Positions 2,047 to 15,601 of a stretch of DNA of 23,527 nt are shown here, one piece after another (the stretch's first letter is position 1; each line of letters begins with the position of its first letter). The DNA is taken from positions 1 through 23,527 of IMG/VR virus record IMGVR_UViG_3300032288_002821. One strand, written 5' to 3'. Under the pieces are notes generated by a model that saw nothing but the letters and a program-made list of their open reading frames with translations, ran no database searches and was not told the origin of the DNA. Both the position numbers and the translations under genes were made by a program. The DNA is from a virus.

Positions 2047-3765
2047 TCAGCCGCGTCCGTACACAATGGCGACGAAGTCGTCCGCCGCGAGCTGGAACGT
2101 GAACACGACCTGGTCGACACCAGCAGGGCCCGTGCCGTTGCCGAACGTGAAGTCGTTCCCTGCGCCGGGGAGCTGGAGGCGCCCATTGAGGTACACGAGC
2201 AGCGAGCCGAACGCGTCGTTCACGTCGCCGTGGGCCAGGTCAAACGTCGTCTGATTGGACGTCGCGAGGAAGGTCATTCCATGATCGGCCTTGCCGATCG
2301 CCGCGGTGACCTCCGGAGCCAGCTTGGCGAGCGTGATCGCAGCGTCCGCGATCTTCGCCGTGCTGACGCTCGCGCCCTTCAGCTTGAGTCCGGTTCCGGT
2401 TGCCTCGATGGCGTCAGAACCGTCCACCAGCACGCTAAGGCCAGCACCGTCCGCGACGAGCGCGGGGTTGGTGGCGTTCAGCTTGATCGAGACGTAGTTG
2501 CTGCCGTCCACCTGGACGCCGTTGGCGGTGTTGATGAACAGCCCGACTGCGTCAGCGTTCAGACCGCCATTGGCCTTCCGGCTCACGGCCAAACCGCTGG
2601 AACCAACCTGCAGGCCGGAGGTTCCGGTCAGCTTGAGCGTGAGTGCATCGCTGAGGATCTGAATGCCTCCCGCAGCAGCCACGTTGACGTCCAAAGTATT
2701 GCCGGTCTTCGCGAGCGCATTTCCAGCCGTGATCTGTCCGAGTCCGGTGAACTGGCTGAAAACCAGCGCCGTCGTTCCGACCGTGATCGAGGCGTTGTCG
2801 TTGATGCAGATAAACCCGGTGTCGGCAAGCGTGCCTTCACGGACGAACACGGCAGCGCCGCGGATCTCGTTCGGCGCGTCGAAGTCGACAGCCCGAGTCG
2901 AGCCGGAGACGCCGACAACGTAGACGCCGGCAGCGGTCGATCCGCCATCGCGGAACCACAGGATGCGGTCACCAGCGGCGACGGTGACACCGCCGAACGA
3001 CCCACCAGCGATGACCGTGGTGGGGTCGAACGGATTGCTATCCGCAACCGCGGCGCGCACGCTCTCCTTCCAGTTTGCGCCCTGGGCGATGGAGTCTACG
3101 TAGCCCTTGGTGACGACGTCGGAGTCCGCTGGGGTCGCGGCCATCGAGGTCTTCAGCTTGCCGGCGCTGAACGTCCACTCAGCGGTCAGATCTGCCTTGG
3201 CGGGGGACACGGCGTTCGCGGCGAGCTTGTCAGTCGTCACATTCGCGTCGATGATGGCCGACGTGCCGACGCTGGCGCTAGCCAGCTTGCCGGAGGTCAC
3301 GGCACCAGCGCCGATCTTGTCGGCAGTCACGGCCCCGGCGCCGATCTTCGCTTCGATCACGGCACCATCGGCCAGCTTGGCAGACTCGACCGCACCGGCT
3401 CCGATCTTCGCCGCGGTGATCGCACCAGCGCCGACCTTGGCCTCAGTCACCGCACCGTCCGCAAGCTTGCCGGAGGTCACAGCACCGGCGCCAAGCTTGG
3501 CCTCGATGACCGCGCCGTCCGCAAGCTTCGCGCTCTCAACCGCGCCCGCGCCGATCTTGGCGGCGGTAACCGCACCGGAAGCGATCTTCGCCTCGGTAAC
3601 GGCGTTGCTCGCAATCTTCGTCTCGGTAGCCGCGCCATCTGCGAGCTTGCCGGTGGTGACGTTGAGGTCCTTAATCTTCGCAGTCTCAACCGCGTCGGCG
3701 GCGATGAGGCTGGCGATGATCGAACCGGAAGCGAGGTCAGACGAGCGAATAAAAGTACGTGCCAT
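2047..3765 (-). CDS. Tail fibre protein with decapeptide repeats
   Basis: This is a 572-residue fibre/appendage protein. Residues 21-190 form 17 ten-residue units of the form (G/D)AVTxAK(I/L)(G/A)(A/D), with Lys at almost every tenth position, probably a repetitive elongated shaft. A segment at 208-235 (DSDVVTKGYVDSIAQGANWK) is common in phage fibres. A serine/glycine/asparagine-rich beta region follows, then two more shaft-like decads near 470-490. The last 75 residues (VYLNGRLQ, NDFTFGN, QVVFTFQLAADDFVAIVYGRG) resemble a receptor-binding tip. The ATG has GGAGG seven bases upstream. It is the last gene before the terminator, far from the tape measure, as expected for a host-range fibre. Trimeric assembly and receptor binding are inferred from the family, not visible directly. 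Confidence 0.8.
   Translation of the reverse strand: MARTFIRSSDLASGSIIASLIAADAVETAKIKDLNVTTGKLADGAATETKIASNAVTEAKIASGAVTAAKIGAGAVESAKLADGAVIEAKLGAGAVTSGKLADGAVTEAKVGAGAITAAKIGAGAVESAKLADGAVIEAKIGAGAVTADKIGAGAVTSGKLASASVGTSAIIDANVTTDKLAANAVSPAKADLTAEWTFSAGKLKTSMAATPADSDVVTKGYVDSIAQGANWKESVRAAVADSNPFDPTTVIAGGSFGGVTVAAGDRILWFRDGGSTAAGVYVVGVSGSTRAVDFDAPNEIRGAAVFVREGTLADTGFICINDNASITVGTTALVFSQFTGLGQITAGNALAKTGNTLDVNVAAAGGIQILSDALTLKLTGTSGLQVGSSGLAVSRKANGGLNADAVGLFINTANGVQVDGSNYVSIKLNATNPALVADGAGLSVLVDGSDAIEATGTGLKLKGASVSTAKIADAAITLAKLAPEVTAAIGKADHGMTFLATSNQTTFDLAHGDVNDAFGSLLVYLNGRLQLPGAGNDFTFGNGTGPAGVDQVVFTFQLAADDFVAIVYGRG
3196..3705 (-). repeat. 30-base coding tandem repeat in the fibre shaft
   Basis: About 17 degenerate 30-base units encode residues 21-190 of the fibre. 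A higher-order period of 150 bases is superimposed: residues 68-90 recur identically at 118-140. This points to expansion by unequal recombination or slippage. Confidence 0.85.
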
Positions 3766-6943: not shown

Positions 6944-8518
6944 CTATGCGTGCGACGTCACGCGCAGACTAACGATCAACCCGTGATCCTCAGTCCACCG
7001 GATCGACTGCACCAGAGCGACGTCCTTTGAGAACCCGACGTCGGCATCCGTGAGGCTCACCACGTCGCCGCGGCGAATGCTGCCGTACCTGGGTGGGAGC
7101 GCGTATTGCACGGTGCGCGATGGGAGCGCGTACCGTCGCGACCTCCACGCCACCACGCGCGCCGCCGTCGCGTCGTCGCTAATGATGCCGCTTTCATAGT
7201 CGAGCACGACGCGTCCGAACTGCCCGTAGCTGCGCCGCAGAGTAGCATCCGACCACAGGTTCTTAGCGTCAACCGGCGCACCATCGTACCGCAGCGACGT
7301 CGCGTATTCGTCGGTCAACGGGTTGACCCGGTAGCGGAATGAGCCAGCGTTTGCTACCTCGCTGCGTCCCTCGTAAGACACGCGCGAGACGCGGGTAACG
7401 TCCGTCTCGACCGACGTGTCGACGTCCCATGTGGCGTCCTGCGCCGTCGCCGTCCACGGCCATACCTGCGGGTAGACGCCACGCGGGCCGCTCACCATGG
7501 ACACCGGCAGCACCTCGAGGACCGAATGCAGGAGCCAATCCGACAGGCTCACCGGCTCGTCGATGTAGGTGTCGATCCGGAAGTCATCCAGCGCAGGCAG
7601 CGCCGTAAGCAGGCTTTGGTAGTCCACCCGCACGCGGCTTCGCTCGAGCGCGTATTGCAGCAGCGCCCCGGCATTCCGCACGCCCGTAAGGCCGCCGCCG
7701 TTGTCCCACACGATCGCGACGTTCTGACTTGCCGTGAACAGAGAGGCACCGACGACATGCTCCGCGACCGCGATCCGCCTGCCGTTGACCGTGACGTGTT
7801 CGATGTTCGCAACTTGCGTGTTCCCTGCCTCGTCGCGCAGCGTGACCGTCGATGCTTCGACCTGGTGTCCCGCGACGGCCCACACGGCATAGACCACAGG
7901 TCCAGCGACGACGTAGACATACAGCAGGAACGTCGGGCTACCTGCCGTGACGCCTGCGCCCGGCGTGCCGACCACGAACGGGAACACGCGCCCGTTGACC
8001 TCGTCTGCGGATGGCGTGGCTACCGGCTTGATGACGCCGGCCTCGTCCCATTCGGCGCGGCTGAACGTCACCAGCTCGTCGGGGAACGTGCCCGTGTCGT
8101 CCAACACGTTCTCCTCAAGGGAGAGCGTCACCGGTTCGTCATCGCCTCCGTACTCCGGGTCAACGAACGTCCCGACCATCACGGTACGCCGTTGCTCCCA
8201 CGTCCCGCCGACGTAGACTTGCGCCAGCTCGCCGCGCACTCCATCGAGCATGTAGCCGCGGCTAACGAGCTGCCCGACGTTGAACGGGAACATGAGCGCG
8301 AGCGCGACCGACGCCCGCGGCGCGTCCGTCACCCACAGGTCGATCGCCTCCTCGACGTCCGGTACCTCAAGCATTCCCGGCACGACGGCGACAATCTGCG
8401 AGCCTACCTGTAGATCCCACGATTCCGTGCCCATGTAGTACGTCGTCCCGGCGTACTCGAAGACCAGCACCCACCGCCATCCGGCGGCGAGCTGTTCAGC
8501 GGTCCACCGGTCGCTCAC
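6944..8518 (-). CDS. Tail tip / baseplate hub-like protein
   Basis: This 524-residue protein lies two genes below the tape measure and is coupled to the gene above by GTGA. The N-terminal 150 residues form a beta-rich region with TTYYMGTESWDLQVG and DAPRASVALALMFPFNVGQLV. The middle has ADEVNGRVFPFVVG and LRDEAGNTQVANIEHVTVNG. The C-terminal part (SYGQFGRVVLDYESGIISDD, then YGSIRRGDVVSLTDADVGFS) resembles the last beta domain of phage hub proteins. It is probably a virion component connecting tube and fibres. I see no lysozyme or peptidase motif in it. The exact name (hub, distal tail or tip) cannot be settled without structure comparison. Confidence 0.6.
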   Translation of the reverse strand: MSDRWTAEQLAAGWRWVLVFEYAGTTYYMGTESWDLQVGSQIVAVVPGMLEVPDVEEAIDLWVTDAPRASVALALMFPFNVGQLVSRGYMLDGVRGELAQVYVGGTWEQRRTVMVGTFVDPEYGGDDEPVTLSLEENVLDDTGTFPDELVTFSRAEWDEAGVIKPVATPSADEVNGRVFPFVVGTPGAGVTAGSPTFLLYVYVVAGPVVYAVWAVAGHQVEASTVTLRDEAGNTQVANIEHVTVNGRRIAVAEHVVGASLFTASQNVAIVWDNGGGLTGVRNAGALLQYALERSRVRVDYQSLLTALPALDDFRIDTYIDEPVSLSDWLLHSVLEVLPVSMVSGPRGVYPQVWPWTATAQDATWDVDTSVETDVTRVSRVSYEGRSEVANAGSFRYRVNPLTDEYATSLRYDGAPVDAKNLWSDATLRRSYGQFGRVVLDYESGIISDDATAARVVAWRSRRYALPSRTVQYALPPRYGSIRRGDVVSLTDADVGFSKDVALVQSIRWTEDHGLIVSLRVTSHA

Positions 8519-11500
8519 AGCTCCTCCTCGATCAGAATGGAGGACGTCCGCACGACCTCGCCGCGGCGGTCCTCGCCGGCGTATTCGTCGCCCTGGACGG
8601 TCTCAATCGAGACGTCGGAGACGATGCGCCCGTAGAGCATGTGGTCGCGGTGAACGATCATGTAGTTGGTCCCCGCCGCCTGGGGCTCAATCCACGGCAG
8701 ATACACGACCGGCAGCTCCGGGCCTCGCGTCATCTCCACGATCCCGCGCATGAGCGCCGGGCCGTCGACCGCAGCCGCCAGAGGCGTCCCGCCGGCGGTG
8801 TTCGTGTTCGTGATGTAGTCGGGCAGGCTAGTCGCGCTCTGGTCGCGCTCAAGCTGAGACTGATCCACGCCGTCCGTCCATCCGAACTCGACCGTGCGGC
8901 GCGTCCTGCCCTCGTTGCGCGCGGTGCGCGTGCCGTCTCGCGCCGTCGTGAGCGTCGTGTTGGGCGAGCTGCGAACCTGCCGGCCCCAGGAGTACCGGTG
9001 CCCGAACGCGACGATCGGTCCAAGGATGATCGCGCCGGCCTCGTAGTAGAGGTTGACGTGATCGCGTACCGTCTGCGACGGGATGGTCAACCGGTACTTG
9101 CTGGCAAACGGATCGGCGTTGAACACCAAGCACGCGTTCCGGCTCGCGATGGATGCGATGCCCGACACCGGGCCGCCGGGGTCCACGTCCACCTCTAGGC
9201 GTAGCAGCCTCGTCTTAGTAGCGGCGACAGGGTCGGCCCATGCACCCTCGGAGCTGGCGGTGATCGATCCTCCGGATCCGTCGAGGATGATCATGTCGCC
9301 TTCCAAGGCGTTGACCGGGTACCAGTAGGCCGCAGCCGTGCTGCCAGAGCGCGGGCGAACCGTCGAGCCGGCACGCGAGTAGCTCATGCCGCTCTGACCG
9401 ATCGTGCTGTCCCACGTTCCAATCACGGTCCACACGCCGGATACCTGCTTCTCCAAGGTCGCTTGAGCGAACGAGGCGTTGCCGATGTAGAGGCCCATGA
9501 GCGGCGAGAGCATCGGTTCCGAAACCGCAGGATCAAACGTCAAGTCCCAAACGATCACGTTCGGATCCGACTGCGTGCGCCACGTCCTGTCGGGCGACGG
9601 GCTCCGGCGGATGTCGATGTTCTCGATCCCGTAGCGGTAGCTAGCCGAGACGTTCCAGGTATCCCCGACCAGCGTTGGTCCGCCTACTGCACGGATGCTG
9701 ATCAAGTCGTTCAGAAGCCGGTAGCGCGTCGAGAACGTCTGCGGCTTGAGGTTCGACGGGTAACTGACGCCATGCGCCTTCGTGAGCGACCGCGAGACAT
9801 AGGCCGCCACCAGGTACCACGTCGAGGTCGACAAGCCGGCCTGCCCGAACGTCACTACCTGGCGAGCGCCGGCCGCAGCCACGCGCGGCGTCAAAGCGCG
9901 GTTGGAGACGTTCAGATCGCGGAACCATGCACGCCGGTTTGCGACTGCGCCTCGCGTGTCGGTCTGCCACAGCGTAGCCACGGCGCCGGTCCCTGTCTGC
10001 GTGACGTAGACGCGGAACTGCCAGCCCGTCGAGGGGACCGTCAGCGTGGCCCAAACGGTACCGCTTACAGCGTCAACGACCTCCACTTGAGTCGTGCTGA
10101 TGGCGCGGATCGTGAGCGCATATTCATTGACCGCATCTGCGACGATCAACGAAGCCGCGCCGGTGTTTCCGAGCTGGGCGTCCACGATCGCGCAGAGCGT
10201 GTAGTCCGTAGCGACCGCAGGACCGATCAAGTAGTTGTAGAACTGCGACTCCCCGGCGGCGGTCTGCACGACCAGACCTCCGGTAGAGTTGATCGAGATC
10301 ACCGGCGTACCGACCACGGACGCAGTCCACCCGGCAGCGTCGGGGAACTGGGAGCCGAACCAAGATACTTGCGACCCGATGGTCGCGCCGTTGAACGCGG
10401 CATCCTCCGGCGGCGTGTGCGTGTGGTACCCGCCGAACTGCCACCGCGCCATCTGATCGACGCGAGCACCGGTCGACATGGTCCCGAACAGGTTTAGCGT
10501 GTTCTCCACGATCGCCGCAGACGTCTCCTGCGGGCGCCCGGCGTTGTCGCCAAGCATAAACGACGAGGAGGTCAGCGAGGCACCGTCGATCGTTGCGCGC
10601 GTCCACGTCTCTCCGTCAATGCTGCTCTCAAGCATGACGCCGTCCGTCGTGTTCGTGATGCACCATGCCGTCCCGGCCTCGTCAACAACAAGCGCGAGCT
10701 GCGTCGTGCTGCCCAGCTCTCCGTTGGCATTCAGCGTCCCCGGCGCGCCGTTGTTTAGCGTCTGAGTCGGAGCGGACGAGAGCGCCGTAAAGGCGGACCC
10801 GAGCGTGATGGAGAGCGCCTGCGAATCGGCACCCCACGTCGCGAAGTCCGACCCGCAGTAGGCAACCATGAAGCCCGACGTCCCGAACGGCACGACGTCG
10901 TGAACGCCGCCGGCCTGCGGACCCGACGCGGCGTTGGAGACGAACGCGAACGACGCCCCGCCGTCGTTGCTGGCGTACTGCAACAGAGAATCCCTAGGCG
11001 TCGATCCGTTGAACCGGCGAGCAATCACTAGCAGAACTTGACCGGCGTTGTACGCTGCCCGGATGCGCCGGTAGGTCGCGGAGATACCTACGATGCTGGA
11101 ACTGAGGTCGTTCTCAAGCACGCGCTCGGCGTTGAGCGTCCACGTTCCGCCGTCGTTGGTCGAAACGTAGAGGCTCAAGTTGTGCTTCGTCGTGCTGCCC
11201 TCGGTGTAGTCGTTGAACACCAGCATCCCGATCTTATTGTCGGGCAACAGGAACAAGCACGCCTGCAAGTTCGGTACGGCGATGATGCTGGAGGCAAGCG
11301 TGATGGACGAGGTCGCGCCGGCGAGCGTCAGACGATGCACGCGCAGTCGTCCACCTAGTCCGGACTGCTCTCGGTTCACGACCAGCACCGTACCCGCAGG
11401 CGTCGTGATGGCATCCGAGCGCGTAGCCGGGTTCGTTGCGACTGCGGCCCATCCGGCAAGCGGCGCAAAGCCGGCGATAGTCGCGTAGCCGTTTGCGCCG

Positions 11501-11802
11501 TAGTAGTCGGCGGTTCCGGTCGGACGCCAGGTGAACCCGCCGGCGTTGATCTCCCCTCCTGCGTATTCGCCGGGGGAGCCTGCCCGGTTGGTCCGAATGT
11601 CCACCGCATTCGCTGGCGTCGTTCCCGTCGCTGCGCGGCTCTCGATCTCCATCGCACCGGTTTGCCCCGTCCTAGTCGGGACGCCACCCGTTGCGCCGTC
11701 CTGCCCGTAGGACGAGAGAGTCGGATCGATCCGCGTGTGCTGGATGCGCGACGAGGGGATCAGAATCCCCCGGAAGGCTTCCACATTCTTGCGGCTGCTC
11801 AT
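8515..11802 (-). CDS. Large tail protein with BNR-like propeller and jelly-roll regions
   Basis: This 1095-residue protein directly follows the tape measure. The start is ATG at 11802, with GGAGGGG about seven bases upstream; a longer frame from 11943 would run inside the tape measure and has an Arg/Ser-rich, non-protein-like extension. Asp-box-like motifs appear at 214-221 (STNDGGTW), 278-285 (SNDGGASF) and 394-400 (SIDGETW), as in sialidase-type BNR propellers. Residues about 493-618 look like a concanavalin/LamG-type beta sandwich. The C-terminal 300 residues are beta-rich, ending near VSIETVQGDEYAG. The protein is probably a tail-tip or side-fibre component that binds surface glycans. Sialidase catalytic residues (FRIP Arg triad) could not be identified, so binding is more likely than cleavage. 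It couples to the next gene through GTGA. Confidence 0.65.
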   Translation of the reverse strand: MSSRKNVEAFRGILIPSSRIQHTRIDPTLSSYGQDGATGGVPTRTGQTGAMEIESRAATGTTPANAVDIRTNRAGSPGEYAGGEINAGGFTWRPTGTADYYGANGYATIAGFAPLAGWAAVATNPATRSDAITTPAGTVLVVNREQSGLGGRLRVHRLTLAGATSSITLASSIIAVPNLQACLFLLPDNKIGMLVFNDYTEGSTTKHNLSLYVSTNDGGTWTLNAERVLENDLSSSIVGISATYRRIRAAYNAGQVLLVIARRFNGSTPRDSLLQYASNDGGASFAFVSNAASGPQAGGVHDVVPFGTSGFMVAYCGSDFATWGADSQALSITLGSAFTALSSAPTQTLNNGAPGTLNANGELGSTTQLALVVDEAGTAWCITNTTDGVMLESSIDGETWTRATIDGASLTSSSFMLGDNAGRPQETSAAIVENTLNLFGTMSTGARVDQMARWQFGGYHTHTPPEDAAFNGATIGSQVSWFGSQFPDAAGWTASVVGTPVISINSTGGLVVQTAAGESQFYNYLIGPAVATDYTLCAIVDAQLGNTGAASLIVADAVNEYALTIRAISTTQVEVVDAVSGTVWATLTVPSTGWQFRVYVTQTGTGAVATLWQTDTRGAVANRRAWFRDLNVSNRALTPRVAAAGARQVVTFGQAGLSTSTWYLVAAYVSRSLTKAHGVSYPSNLKPQTFSTRYRLLNDLISIRAVGGPTLVGDTWNVSASYRYGIENIDIRRSPSPDRTWRTQSDPNVIVWDLTFDPAVSEPMLSPLMGLYIGNASFAQATLEKQVSGVWTVIGTWDSTIGQSGMSYSRAGSTVRPRSGSTAAAYWYPVNALEGDMIILDGSGGSITASSEGAWADPVAATKTRLLRLEVDVDPGGPVSGIASIASRNACLVFNADPFASKYRLTIPSQTVRDHVNLYYEAGAIILGPIVAFGHRYSWGRQVRSSPNTTLTTARDGTRTARNEGRTRRTVEFGWTDGVDQSQLERDQSATSLPDYITNTNTAGGTPLAAAVDGPALMRGIVEMTRGPELPVVYLPWIEPQAAGTNYMIVHRDHMLYGRIVSDVSIETVQGDEYAGEDRRGEVVRTSSILIEEEL

Positions 11803-11803
11803 C

Positions 11804-13873
11804 TCATCCCCTCCGCTGGCCGGCACGGGGTCCAGCCCCCAGCGCACGCCCCAAGGTACCACGGGTGCGCAGCTCGTCACGGACGAAGTAATCGAATGCC
11901 TTGTGCTTGTAGACGATCTGCACCGCGGTTCCCTGCGAGGCAACGCCCTGCCCGGCGTTCAACCGTTCGATGTTCGCGTCTCCGAGCGTCTGACGCGCCA
12001 CCGGGTTTAGCACCGCCTCACCGGAGCGAAGCCGCGCGACCATCTCGTCCGGTGCGCCCACGACGCCACCGGCATGGAACGCCGGCTGCTGCGATGCGAT
12101 GGCGGCGATCTGCACGGCACCGGCTGCGGCGGCGAGACCCGCTGCAAACAGGTTTGGAGCCGGAGGGGTCGCAAGCGCGTTTGCGGCTGCGAGCGCAACA
12201 GCAGCGGTCGCCTGCGCCAGCTTCAGCGCCTTGTCGACCATAAACGCCTTCATGGCGGCGGACCTCTCGTCGCGCACACGCTGTTCCGCGTTCAGCTTCG
12301 CAGCGCGGCTAGCATCTTCGTCCAGGCTGTCGCGGGCCTCGACGGCGGCTTGATAGTCCGACGTCTGCTGATCCAGGTAGAGCGAGCTGGCCTGCGTGAT
12401 GATCTCTGCGGTCTGCTGCGCGTTCGCGATCATGTTCGCGGCACGCTCTGCCGCTGCGGCCTTCTCGGCTTCGAGGTTCTTCAGCCGGAGCGCGTCCAGC
12501 TCGCCATACATCGCCGTCTCGGCGTCGATGATCTGCGCGTTCGTAGCTTCCGCGATCGCGGCGCGAGCCTGCCCATCCTCCCCGGCCTGGGCGATCAACG
12601 CGGCGCCAGCCTCGCGGATACCGCGGACGCGCTCCTCGTATCCAAGCCGGATCTTCTCCTCGTCGTTCGCGGCGGAAACGGCGGCGGCTGCGCTGGACTT
12701 GCGCGCGGCCTCCTGCGCCGACTCAACCGCGTTTGCGGCCTTCTCCGCTGCGGCGGCTGCGGCCTTCTGCGCTTCCGTCTCAGCTTTCAGCTGCGCGGCG
12801 CGCTCCTTCTCCGCGTCCGTTGCGGCCTTGGTCGCAGCTTCGCCGGCCTGCTTCGCCTGAGCTGACGCAATCTCCAAGTCGCGAGCGCGCTTTGTCGCAG
12901 CAGCAGCAGCGGAGATAGCCGCCGCGCGGCCTTGCTCCGCTTCCGTGTTGTCCTTCGTTACTCCGAGCATGTCCGTGCTAGTGCGGATGCCGGAGGCGAT
13001 GGACGCTTCAAGTGCGTCAAAGTCGGGTAGTGCAGCCTTCGCGCGAGCAGCCAACGCGCGAATCGAGTCTGCGGTCGAATCGCTGATCAGTCCGAACGAC
13101 GACAACGCGTCGGCAGCGTAGGACAACGACTCCGGCAGGATGCCGAACGGCACCAGCAGCTTGACGACCATCGTGGCAAGGCTTGCGATCGAACCAATCA
13201 CAAGCTGCGTCGTCGCTTCCGTCTCGCGCGCTGCGCGGCTCTCCTCGTTGAGCTTCGCGATGAATGTCCCGAGCCTGTCTGCTGCGGCCTGCCGGATGCC
13301 CATCTCCTGCGCGGTAGCTTCGGATAGCTGACCGGTTGCAACCGCAAGTGCGATCGATGCTTCCTCGGCGCGGCGGTTCTCATTCGCGACGTATTCGTTG
13401 GCCGCAGCGGCAATCCTCGCCAGCTCTGCCTCGCGCGCAAGTTCCGCGTTCATCGCCATGAAGGCCGCACCAGCCGCCACAGCCGCGACCGCAAGCGGGC
13501 CTAGCGCCGCCGTGCTGAGACCGAGCGTGCCCGCGGCGACCTCTCCCACGTCGGCCAGGTCCGCGACGTTTCGCGCCACGTCCGCGACGGGTCCACCGAG
13601 CATACCGAGCGCACCGGCCAGCTTGCCCGAGTCGCGCCCGACGACGCCGAACGTGTCGCCTAGTTCCTTCGCCTTGTCGACGGCAGGCTGCATCGCCCGC
13701 GCCTGCGCCTTCGCAAGCTGCTTCGTGGCCTTCTCGTTCGCCTTGATCGTCTTCTCAAGCGCGGCCATCATGGCCAACGCTTCCTTCTGCATGTCCTTTG
13801 GCAGAGTCGCGAGCTGCTGACGCAAGCCACCGAGCTCGGCGGTGATCTCAATAGGTACGGCTTCCGTCGCCAT
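11804..13873 (-). CDS. Tape measure protein
   Basis: This 689-residue protein sets tail length and is carried inside the tube. It is Ala-rich with long coiled coils (about 20-75 and 310-420, many KAA/EAA repeats), hydrophobic segments near 120-142 and 220-245, and an Ala-rich hydrophobic region near 545-600. Near the C-terminus AFHAGGVVGAPDEMV followed by RLRSGEAVLNP is a motif common at the ends of phage tape measures. Two ATGs are adjacent; AGGAGG lies only two bases from the first (13876) but five from the second, so I start at 13873, giving a TGATG junction with the upstream gene. By the usual rule of about 0.15 nm per residue the tail would be near 100 nm, an estimate only. Confidence 0.85.
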   Translation of the reverse strand: MATEAVPIEITAELGGLRQQLATLPKDMQKEALAMMAALEKTIKANEKATKQLAKAQARAMQPAVDKAKELGDTFGVVGRDSGKLAGALGMLGGPVADVARNVADLADVGEVAAGTLGLSTAALGPLAVAAVAAGAAFMAMNAELAREAELARIAAAANEYVANENRRAEEASIALAVATGQLSEATAQEMGIRQAAADRLGTFIAKLNEESRAARETEATTQLVIGSIASLATMVVKLLVPFGILPESLSYAADALSSFGLISDSTADSIRALAARAKAALPDFDALEASIASGIRTSTDMLGVTKDNTEAEQGRAAAISAAAAATKRARDLEIASAQAKQAGEAATKAATDAEKERAAQLKAETEAQKAAAAAAEKAANAVESAQEAARKSSAAAAVSAANDEEKIRLGYEERVRGIREAGAALIAQAGEDGQARAAIAEATNAQIIDAETAMYGELDALRLKNLEAEKAAAAERAANMIANAQQTAEIITQASSLYLDQQTSDYQAAVEARDSLDEDASRAAKLNAEQRVRDERSAAMKAFMVDKALKLAQATAAVALAAANALATPPAPNLFAAGLAAAAGAVQIAAIASQQPAFHAGGVVGAPDEMVARLRSGEAVLNPVARQTLGDANIERLNAGQGVASQGTAVQIVYKHKAFDYFVRDELRTRGTLGRALGAGPRAGQRRG

Positions 13874-14472
13874 CATGCCCTCCTAGCGGTGCGGCTGAGC
13901 GCCTGCGCGAGATGCGGGGCACGCTCGCGAACGTACTTGCGGAGCGGCTTGTTCACCAACTCCTGCCACAAGTTGCGCCCGTCGCTCCGGCGCGGATTCA
14001 GCCGGTACGCACGCACGTTCGTAGGACGTCCCGCCTTGCGCTCATGCGCGGTCGTCAACGCCGGGAGAACGCCGGTACGGCGGTACTCGCTCATGATCTG
14101 CGAGTACGTCGCGTCGTCCACGGTGCCCTTGAACGTCGCCATAGCCGCGGTCCCGTCGCCGCGCGCCTTGGTCACTAGGCTAGTGGGGCCTGCCCGCTTG
14201 ACGAAGTACGCCGAACGGTCCTGCGCGATGACGCGACCCTTTACCTGGTCGGGCGTCAACCGGATCTCCCAGTCAAGCTGACCGGTGGATCCATCGCGTC
14301 GGTAGACCTGCTCGTACCACTCAGCGGATGCGCGGTCGTTGATCGTCTTCACAATGTGCTCGATCTCGTCCACGACGGCGGCGTGGGAGTTCCGCACGAT
14401 CGCCTCCAGCTTCTTCTGAAGCTGCGTCCCGATCTTGGCCGTGGCGCGGCCTGCGCGGATGGTGATCGCCAT
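13873..14472 (-). CDS. HK97 gp10-like neck/tail completion protein (tentative)
   Basis: This 199-residue basic protein sits between the tail chaperones and the tape measure. It has an N-terminal helix (GTQLQKKLEAIVRNSHAAV), a middle segment STGQLDWEIRLTP, then VKGRVIAQDRSAYFVKR, and a helical C-terminus (LVNKPLRKYVRERAPHLAQAL). This order resembles gp10-like head-tail proteins (helix, TGxL strand, YAxxVE strand, C-terminal helix). A gene of that type is normally found between connector and tail terminator, so its place here is unusual. Its ATG at 14472 directly follows the stop codon of the GT frame, and its stop overlaps the tape measure start. The assignment is moderate; a tail-assembly factor is the main alternative. 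Confidence 0.5.
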   Translation of the reverse strand: MAITIRAGRATAKIGTQLQKKLEAIVRNSHAAVVDEIEHIVKTINDRASAEWYEQVYRRDGSTGQLDWEIRLTPDQVKGRVIAQDRSAYFVKRAGPTSLVTKARGDGTAAMATFKGTVDDATYSQIMSEYRRTGVLPALTTAHERKAGRPTNVRAYRLNPRRSDGRNLWQELVNKPLRKYVRERAPHLAQALSRTARRA

Positions 14473-15011
14473 CTAGAACCCCCAGAAGGCCGCGGCCTCC
14501 GGGGAGAACTTACCACTATTCGCAGCCTTCCGCGCGGGCTTAGGCTTCGTCAGCTCGGCGCGAACGCGATGCCACGCCAGCACGCGTTCCTGCGTCTCGA
14601 CGTCCCATCGGTAGAACGCGTCGGGGTCTCCGCAGTACGTTAGCCCCAGCTCGACCGCCAGATAGTCTAGCCCGCCGTCTGGGGATCGGAAAAACCCGCG
14701 GCGCGCGAGACGCCCTCCTCGGTCGGGCCGCCCGTCAGCAGGCGCAACGCCTCGCCCGCAGCCTCGTAGATCTGCTCCTCCGGGATGCCCAGCGCCATCA
14801 GCTCGTCAAAGATCGCGCCGCCCCAGGCGCACGCGTCATAGCCAGAACCGGCGAGCGTAGCCTTGAGAGGCTTCCCGCCCCAGCACGCGCCCAGCGCCGC
14901 GACCAGACCGCGAAGCGCGTTCTTCTGCATCGCGAGACCCACGTCACGCGCGAGCATGTACCCGTTCGGCTTCTTGAGCTGGATCTCGTAGTTACCGAGC
15001 TTGACGACCAC
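14473..15011 (-). CDS. Tail assembly chaperone GT, -1 frameshift fusion
   Basis: Read through the GGGTTTT slippery site, the G protein is extended to 179 residues. The first 107 residues come from the G frame (15011 to 14691). After a -1 slip the frame continues for 72 residues from 14691 to a TAG at 14475-14473. The extension begins FRSPDGGLDYLAVELGLTYC and carries WDVETQERVLAWHRVRAE, a helical segment like the T domains of lambda-type phages. It has no start codon of its own, and it fills the gap exactly up to the next gene's ATG. In known phages GT binds tape measure and tube protein and is absent from the virion. Feature coordinates show the span; the true CDS is a join with one base read twice. 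Confidence 0.8.
14667..15011 (-). CDS. Tail assembly chaperone G
   Basis: This is the unshifted 114-residue product. It begins at a GTG (15011) with GGAGG four to five bases upstream. The protein is helical and soluble in appearance, starting VVVKLGNYEIQLKKPNGYML and ending FSDPQTAG. It sits between tail tube and tape measure genes, the conserved place of tail chaperones in long-tailed phages, and in such phages it is made in excess over the GT fusion. There is no clear sequence family I can name; the identification rests on order and on the overlapping -1 frame extension. Confidence 0.8.
   Translation of the reverse strand: MVVKLGNYEIQLKKPNGYMLARDVGLAMQKNALRGLVAALGACWGGKPLKATLAGSGYDACAWGGAIFDELMALGIPEEQIYEAAGEALRLLTGGPTEEGVSRAAGFSDPQTAG
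14691..14697 (-). other. Programmed -1 ribosomal frameshift site GGGTTTT
   Basis: On the minus strand the G frame reads GCG GGT TTT TCC. The heptamer GGGTTTT fits X-XXY-YYZ, so both tRNAs can re-pair as GGG TTT after a one-base backward slip. The -1 frame is then open for 72 codons, while the zero frame stops at 14667-14669. Confidence 0.82.
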
Positions 15012-15112: not shown

Positions 15113-15601
15113 TCAAGTCGCGGTAATGTCGCCGTACACGGTGCCGTTGATCGTGAACGTGTTGGGCGAACCCTCCGCAAACTCGATCGTCAGATGACAC
15201 TTGTCGAGCGTCAGCGTGTGGTCCGCGGCATCGCCAAAATCGGTGCCCTCGATCGTGAGACCGACCAGCAGCAGCCACACGTCCGTGTCGCCGCGGCTGA
15301 CGCCTGCGCCGAACGCGCCCTTCTTGTTCACGGCGTCGTAAAGACACTTCTCGGTCGCGTCGCTGAGGTCCGTCATCGTCGCGGTAAACGAGAACGTCGC
15401 AGGCGCGAAGTTCGTCTTGCGGACGTTGTGGAACGACCCGCGATCCAGGTACATCTCGACCTCGGTCTGCGACTGCATGACGTTCGAGATCGAGAAGTCG
15501 CCGGCCTCGTACTGCACGGTCAGCGTGATCGGAGAACCGGACCCGTCGCTAAGGGTGATGGTTCCGTCGCGAAAGTTCTTGGGCTTGCTGGAGATAGCCA
15601 T
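15113..15601 (-). CDS. Major tail tube protein (probable)
   Basis: This 162-residue protein is beta-rich, with segments GTITLSDGSGSPITLTVQYE, VEMYLDRGSFHNVRK, FSFTATMTDL and HLTIEFAEGSPNTFTINGTV, as expected for the tube subunit of a long-tailed phage. It lies between the tail terminator and the tail chaperones, its conserved place. The start ATG (15601) has GAGGTG seven bases upstream. A 101-base gap with an 11-pair hairpin follows it, a common arrangement after a highly expressed structural gene. The length is normal for tube proteins without an extra Ig-like domain. Family recognition is by order and composition; no catalytic residues are expected. Confidence 0.75.
   Translation of the reverse strand: MAISSKPKNFRDGTITLSDGSGSPITLTVQYEAGDFSISNVMQSQTEVEMYLDRGSFHNVRKTNFAPATFSFTATMTDLSDATEKCLYDAVNKKGAFGAGVSRGDTDVWLLLVGLTIEGTDFGDAADHTLTLDKCHLTIEFAEGSPNTFTINGTVYGDITAT

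Follow-up and report, generated by a model that had tools for sequence, protein, structure and literature searches.

The DNA analysed here, called the window, is the whole of a 23.5-kb virus record with 66% G+C, and it carries on its minus strand a run of tail genes that is the subject of this work. The run begins with a gene for a putative tail tube (major tail) protein of 162 residues (15113..15601), assigned by its predicted fold, which is followed by the gene that we call G (14667..15011), an open reading frame for the putative 114-residue short form of a tail assembly chaperone. Next come a −1 frame extension that we call T (14473..14691, 72 codons and a stop), a gene for a protein of 199 residues (13873..14472) and a gene for a tape measure protein of 690 residues (11804..13876), the last matched by PHROG tape measure families with E values of 8.2e-08 and 6.1e-07. 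All of these, and the slip site between G and T, lie on the minus strand; the earlier sequence-only reading of this DNA had given no strand. Upstream, the window also carries a terminase large subunit, a scaffold-like protein and a major head protein. Two further minus-strand frames deserve a remark: a 1142-residue open reading frame (8515-11943), when counted from its first TTG, runs 140 bases into the end of the tape measure gene (11804-11943), and its true start probably lies further downstream; a protein of 572 residues (2050-3765) has a weak match, with an E value of 1.2e-05, to the N-terminal motif of the avian adenovirus fibre, probably one of a repeat-like kind within a tail fibre.

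G opens with a GTG at 15011, four bases downstream of a GGAGG, and closes with a TAG at 14669-14667. Seven codons ahead of this stop, in the zero frame of G, lies the heptamer GGGTTTT (14697-14691) just as first described, and it occurs once in the whole window with both strands counted; read as G_GGT_TTT, it has at its 3′ side the T_TTT core (14694-14691). From the slip site, the −1 frame runs on without a stop for 72 codons as far as a TAG at 14475-14473, and the 107 residues of G up to the slip together with the 72 codons of T add up to the 179 residues that had been proposed for a fusion, GT. The claim that the full extension has no start of its own also held, its sole ATG, GTG or TTG being an internal GTG at codon 37. 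That the frame ends one base before the next ATG was nearly right: the TAG directly adjoins, in the same frame, the ATG of the 199-residue gene (14472-14470). This TAG-ATG junction (14475-14470) is probably incidental, since relatives differ there. The length of the open frame is not in itself unusual, because in first-order Markov DNA with the composition of the window the probability that 72 codons stay open is about 0.21. An open −1 frame of this kind could thus be a product of chance in GC-rich DNA, with the extension never translated, and relatives therefore had to decide the matter.

G was used in two scans of viral contigs, which yielded 62 loci; 55 distinct loci, the window included, have a G that ends inside the contig, and 54 are complete for T. 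The 55 come from many metagenome records and are diverged to about 50% protein identity. Homologues of the −1 extension, which the sequence-only reading had suggested looking for, are present in each relative whose sequence reaches far enough to include T, and T is free of stops in all 54 complete loci, whereas the other two frames over the same stretch contain stops in 37 and 47 of the 54. An alignment of 18 members of T is gap-free over its first 47 residues and has 20 invariant residues, among which G6, L8, D9 and A12 lie in or beside the overlap with G. Median dN/dS, a rough pairwise estimate at this high divergence, is 0.41 for the part of T beyond the G stop and 0.40 for G, and T compared with its counterparts in the close relatives L002 and L003 gives dN of 0.014 and 0.007 at a dS of 0.118. 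In nearly all loci the TTT codon and the G stop are either 8 or 11 codons apart, and T keeps its register across the overlap (FRSPDGGLDY, YRSADGALDA) despite this shift of the stop by three codons; in one locus, L043, a deletion of 3 bases leaves both frames intact. By these comparisons, the −1 frame encodes a conserved domain under purifying selection. The observation is real because it is conserved in relatives, not because of its length, and the conserved residues, the 0 of 54 loci with stops and the purifying selection refute an origin by chance, to which we attach practically no probability. The relatives dispose in the same way of a sequencing or assembly error that split one gene into two frames: a single-base insertion or deletion could in principle make such a frame change, but the same arrangement recurs in 55 distinct loci with both frames open in the overlap, and the chance of an error is equally negligible.

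A conserved T domain could still be made as a separate protein, by re-initiation beside the G stop through translational coupling, with no fusion at all. In 24 of the 54 loci (for example L008, L011, L015, L021, L025 and L061) T codon 13 is itself a start codon, in most cases ATG, and in those with a long G it begins two bases past the G stop (TAGCGATG or TAGCCATG). The other side of the account is that 26 of the 54 loci, namely the window and 25 others, have no ATG, GTG or TTG that could start T anywhere from the upstream −1 stop through codon 13, that the T residues ahead of codon 13 are conserved, and that re-initiation would not need T_TTT, which is nevertheless fixed. Because the codon-13 start is not general and the earlier residues are conserved, it does not replace the frameshift, and we regard re-initiation as the sole source of T as very unlikely; an additional short T protein of about 60 residues could, however, arise by re-initiation at codon 13.

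The slip site was compared across the same 55 distinct loci. T_TTT is found in the zero frame, at the same place, in 55/55, and the triplet that precedes it is GGG in 32, GGA in 14, GAC in 6 and GAG in 3, which means that the first triplet of the heptamer is not of the form XXX in 23 loci. The base ahead of TTT is always T, whether the preceding amino acid is Gly, Asp, Thr or Ser, and the codons seen there are GGT, GAT, ACT and AGT. On a tree from which that codon was left out, the preceding triplet has changed about seven times, the minimum possible for four states being three, whereas T_TTT has not changed at all. Elsewhere in the G genes of these loci TTT makes up 15 of 92 Phe codons, in T it makes up 3 of 137, and T_TTT occurs at 3 of the 4,520 codons of nine other window genes. 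As far as these alignments go, the conserved unit is T_TTT and not the canonical X_XXY_YYZ heptamer, and it is mildly new that T_TTT alone is fixed while the triplet ahead of it varies among GGG, GGA, GAC and GAG.

The heptamer of the window, G_GGU_UUU, belongs to those on which mammalian ribosomes shift most readily, and nearly all −1 shifts take place on a site of at least the form Z_ZZN (PMC5009743). Set beside the PRFect catalogue of tail chaperone frameshift sites in sequenced phages, as far as can be told from its motif names, GGGTTTT fits the 'threethree' motif, GGATTTT (14 relatives) agrees with what the name 'twoonefour' suggests, and GACTTTT and GAGTTTT (9 relatives) appear to fall outside all eight −1 motifs listed there (PMC10885494). 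At the window heptamer the slip could leave both tRNAs with acceptable pairing. For GACTTTT and GAGTTTT, by our own pairing argument, the −1 frame would offer the first tRNA a poor match, and for this reason the slip of tRNA-Phe on T_TTT would be the core event. We put at a little under even the odds that this lineage slips via a single tRNA, tRNA-Phe on T_TTT, with the preceding codon (GGT, GAT, ACT or AGT) free to vary and re-pairing poorly, its sites thus forming a minimal T_TTT series and not a tandem-slippage heptamer.

The run of T at the site also raises the question whether the polymerase, and not the ribosome, does the slipping. Transcriptional slippage would be expected to yield much the same fusion product, and the run in the window is five T long; most relatives, however, have TTTTA only, and four or five T make a short run for a polymerase to slip on, which leaves this explanation with a very small probability indeed. 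Many −1 sites, though not all, have a stimulatory RNA structure downstream. In 13 sequences no such structure that was shared or consistently significant was found, the folding z-scores downstream of the slip ranging from −4.5 to +1.8 with mixed signs (−1.4 for the window). Some 20 bases ahead of the slip, on its upstream side, there is a GAGGAGG that looks like a Shine-Dalgarno stimulator, although the distance is long and the motif codes for conserved Glu residues.

The sequences of G and T do not in themselves name a function: neither has a significant match in Pfam, PHROG or NCBIfam or a sequence match to any named family of chaperones, and sequence profiles of G against PDB chains gave nothing. 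The missing family match is weak evidence, because chaperones of this kind diverge beyond the reach of profiles. T has weak hits to subunits of photosynthetic cytochromes, with an E of 0.017 in Pfam and of 0.074 in NCBIfam, which fell below the cut-offs and were taken as chance. Among deposited phage genomes, tblastn found no match for the GT fusion, the 199-residue gene, the tail tube or the tape measure. A collection of genomes gave one relative of G and T, L066 (3393-3931), whose contig of 4 kb had been placed in the bin of a Chloroflexi metagenome-assembled genome; this locus adjoins head and tail genes, and the bin is a weak hint of the host or else a binning error, which is too little for naming a host.

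The model of G (pLDDT 86) consists of a beta hairpin followed by helices, and its best re-aligned match in the PDB is YqbN (3klu), a Bacillus subtilis prophage protein that we take to be a tail-chaperone homologue. YqbN likewise has a beta hairpin and then helices, and differs in having 8% identity with G; the match extends over 82 residues at an rmsd of 3.1 Å with a Z of 6.5, which is moderate (below 8), and the next PDB entry reaches a Z of 3.2. A Foldseek search of the G model against the PDB gave no meaningful match and no chaperone among its matches, while the weak matches among viral structures include the GT of N15 (TMq 0.52, E 1.7) and two chaperones of actinobacterial phages. The tail tube gene belongs to no clear named family by sequence, and its sequence profiles against PDB chains gave nothing; its AlphaFold model (pLDDT 71) finds tail tubes together with Hcp and baseplate tube proteins throughout its best 50 matches, with Z up to 10.2 and a Z of 8.5 for the lambda tail tube.

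The order of genes in the relatives is tail tube, G, T, the 199-residue gene and tape measure. Among the 62 loci the tail tube gene precedes G in 62, the 199-residue gene has homologues in its place in 52 and the tape measure gene is seen in 42, several of the other loci ending too early. The tube gene upstream and the tape measure gene downstream agree with the lambda-type arrangement that the sequence-only reading had cited, with the refinement that the conserved 199-residue gene (14472-13873) intervenes after T. This gene has 14 invariant residues among 18 members, the window protein has no significant family match, and its product may be another protein of tail assembly or completion. No single line of evidence proves what G and T do; the tail-gene context and the predicted folds both fit the reading as a tail assembly chaperone, and combined they make this function by far the likeliest.

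The best explanation of the locus is a tail chaperone pair of the lambda G/GT type, produced by programmed −1 ribosomal frameshifting, to which we give a probability of roughly 0.93; we infer the slippage, its rate and the chaperone roles as parts of this reading. It agrees with the sequence-only reading, and the two routes to refutation that were run, through homologues of the extension and through stops in the −1 frame of relatives, left it standing. Most ribosomes would read G to its stop and make the 114-residue chaperone, and a minority would move back one base at G_GGT_TTT, chiefly by tRNA-Phe shifting from TTT to the overlapping TTT, and continue through the T frame to the 179-residue GT. 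Production of GT at low frequency is likewise suggested by analogy. By the lambda model, G may form a coat on the tape measure, and GT may recruit the tail tube protein through its T domain. The likeness to lambda lies in a short gene between those for tail tube and tape measure, in a −1 slip, close to the 3′ end of that gene, that leads into a frame with no start, and in a G product accompanied by a form with a C-terminal T extension (in part PMC5009743); in lambda the two products are made at about 30:1 (PMC5009743). The locus differs from lambda in that no sequence similarity was detectable in the searches that were run and in that an extra conserved gene separates T from the tape measure gene.

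The frameshifting device itself is well known in tailed phages; what is new is a lineage with no matches in deposited phages for these genes, and the variation of its slip site. The conserved T domain can now be placed, where a gene caller blind to frameshifts would miss it or cut it short, and G and T provide two sequence families that are usable for annotating other phages. The constancy of T_TTT, while the triplet ahead of it has changed some seven times, offers a natural test of the extent to which the classical heptamer is required.
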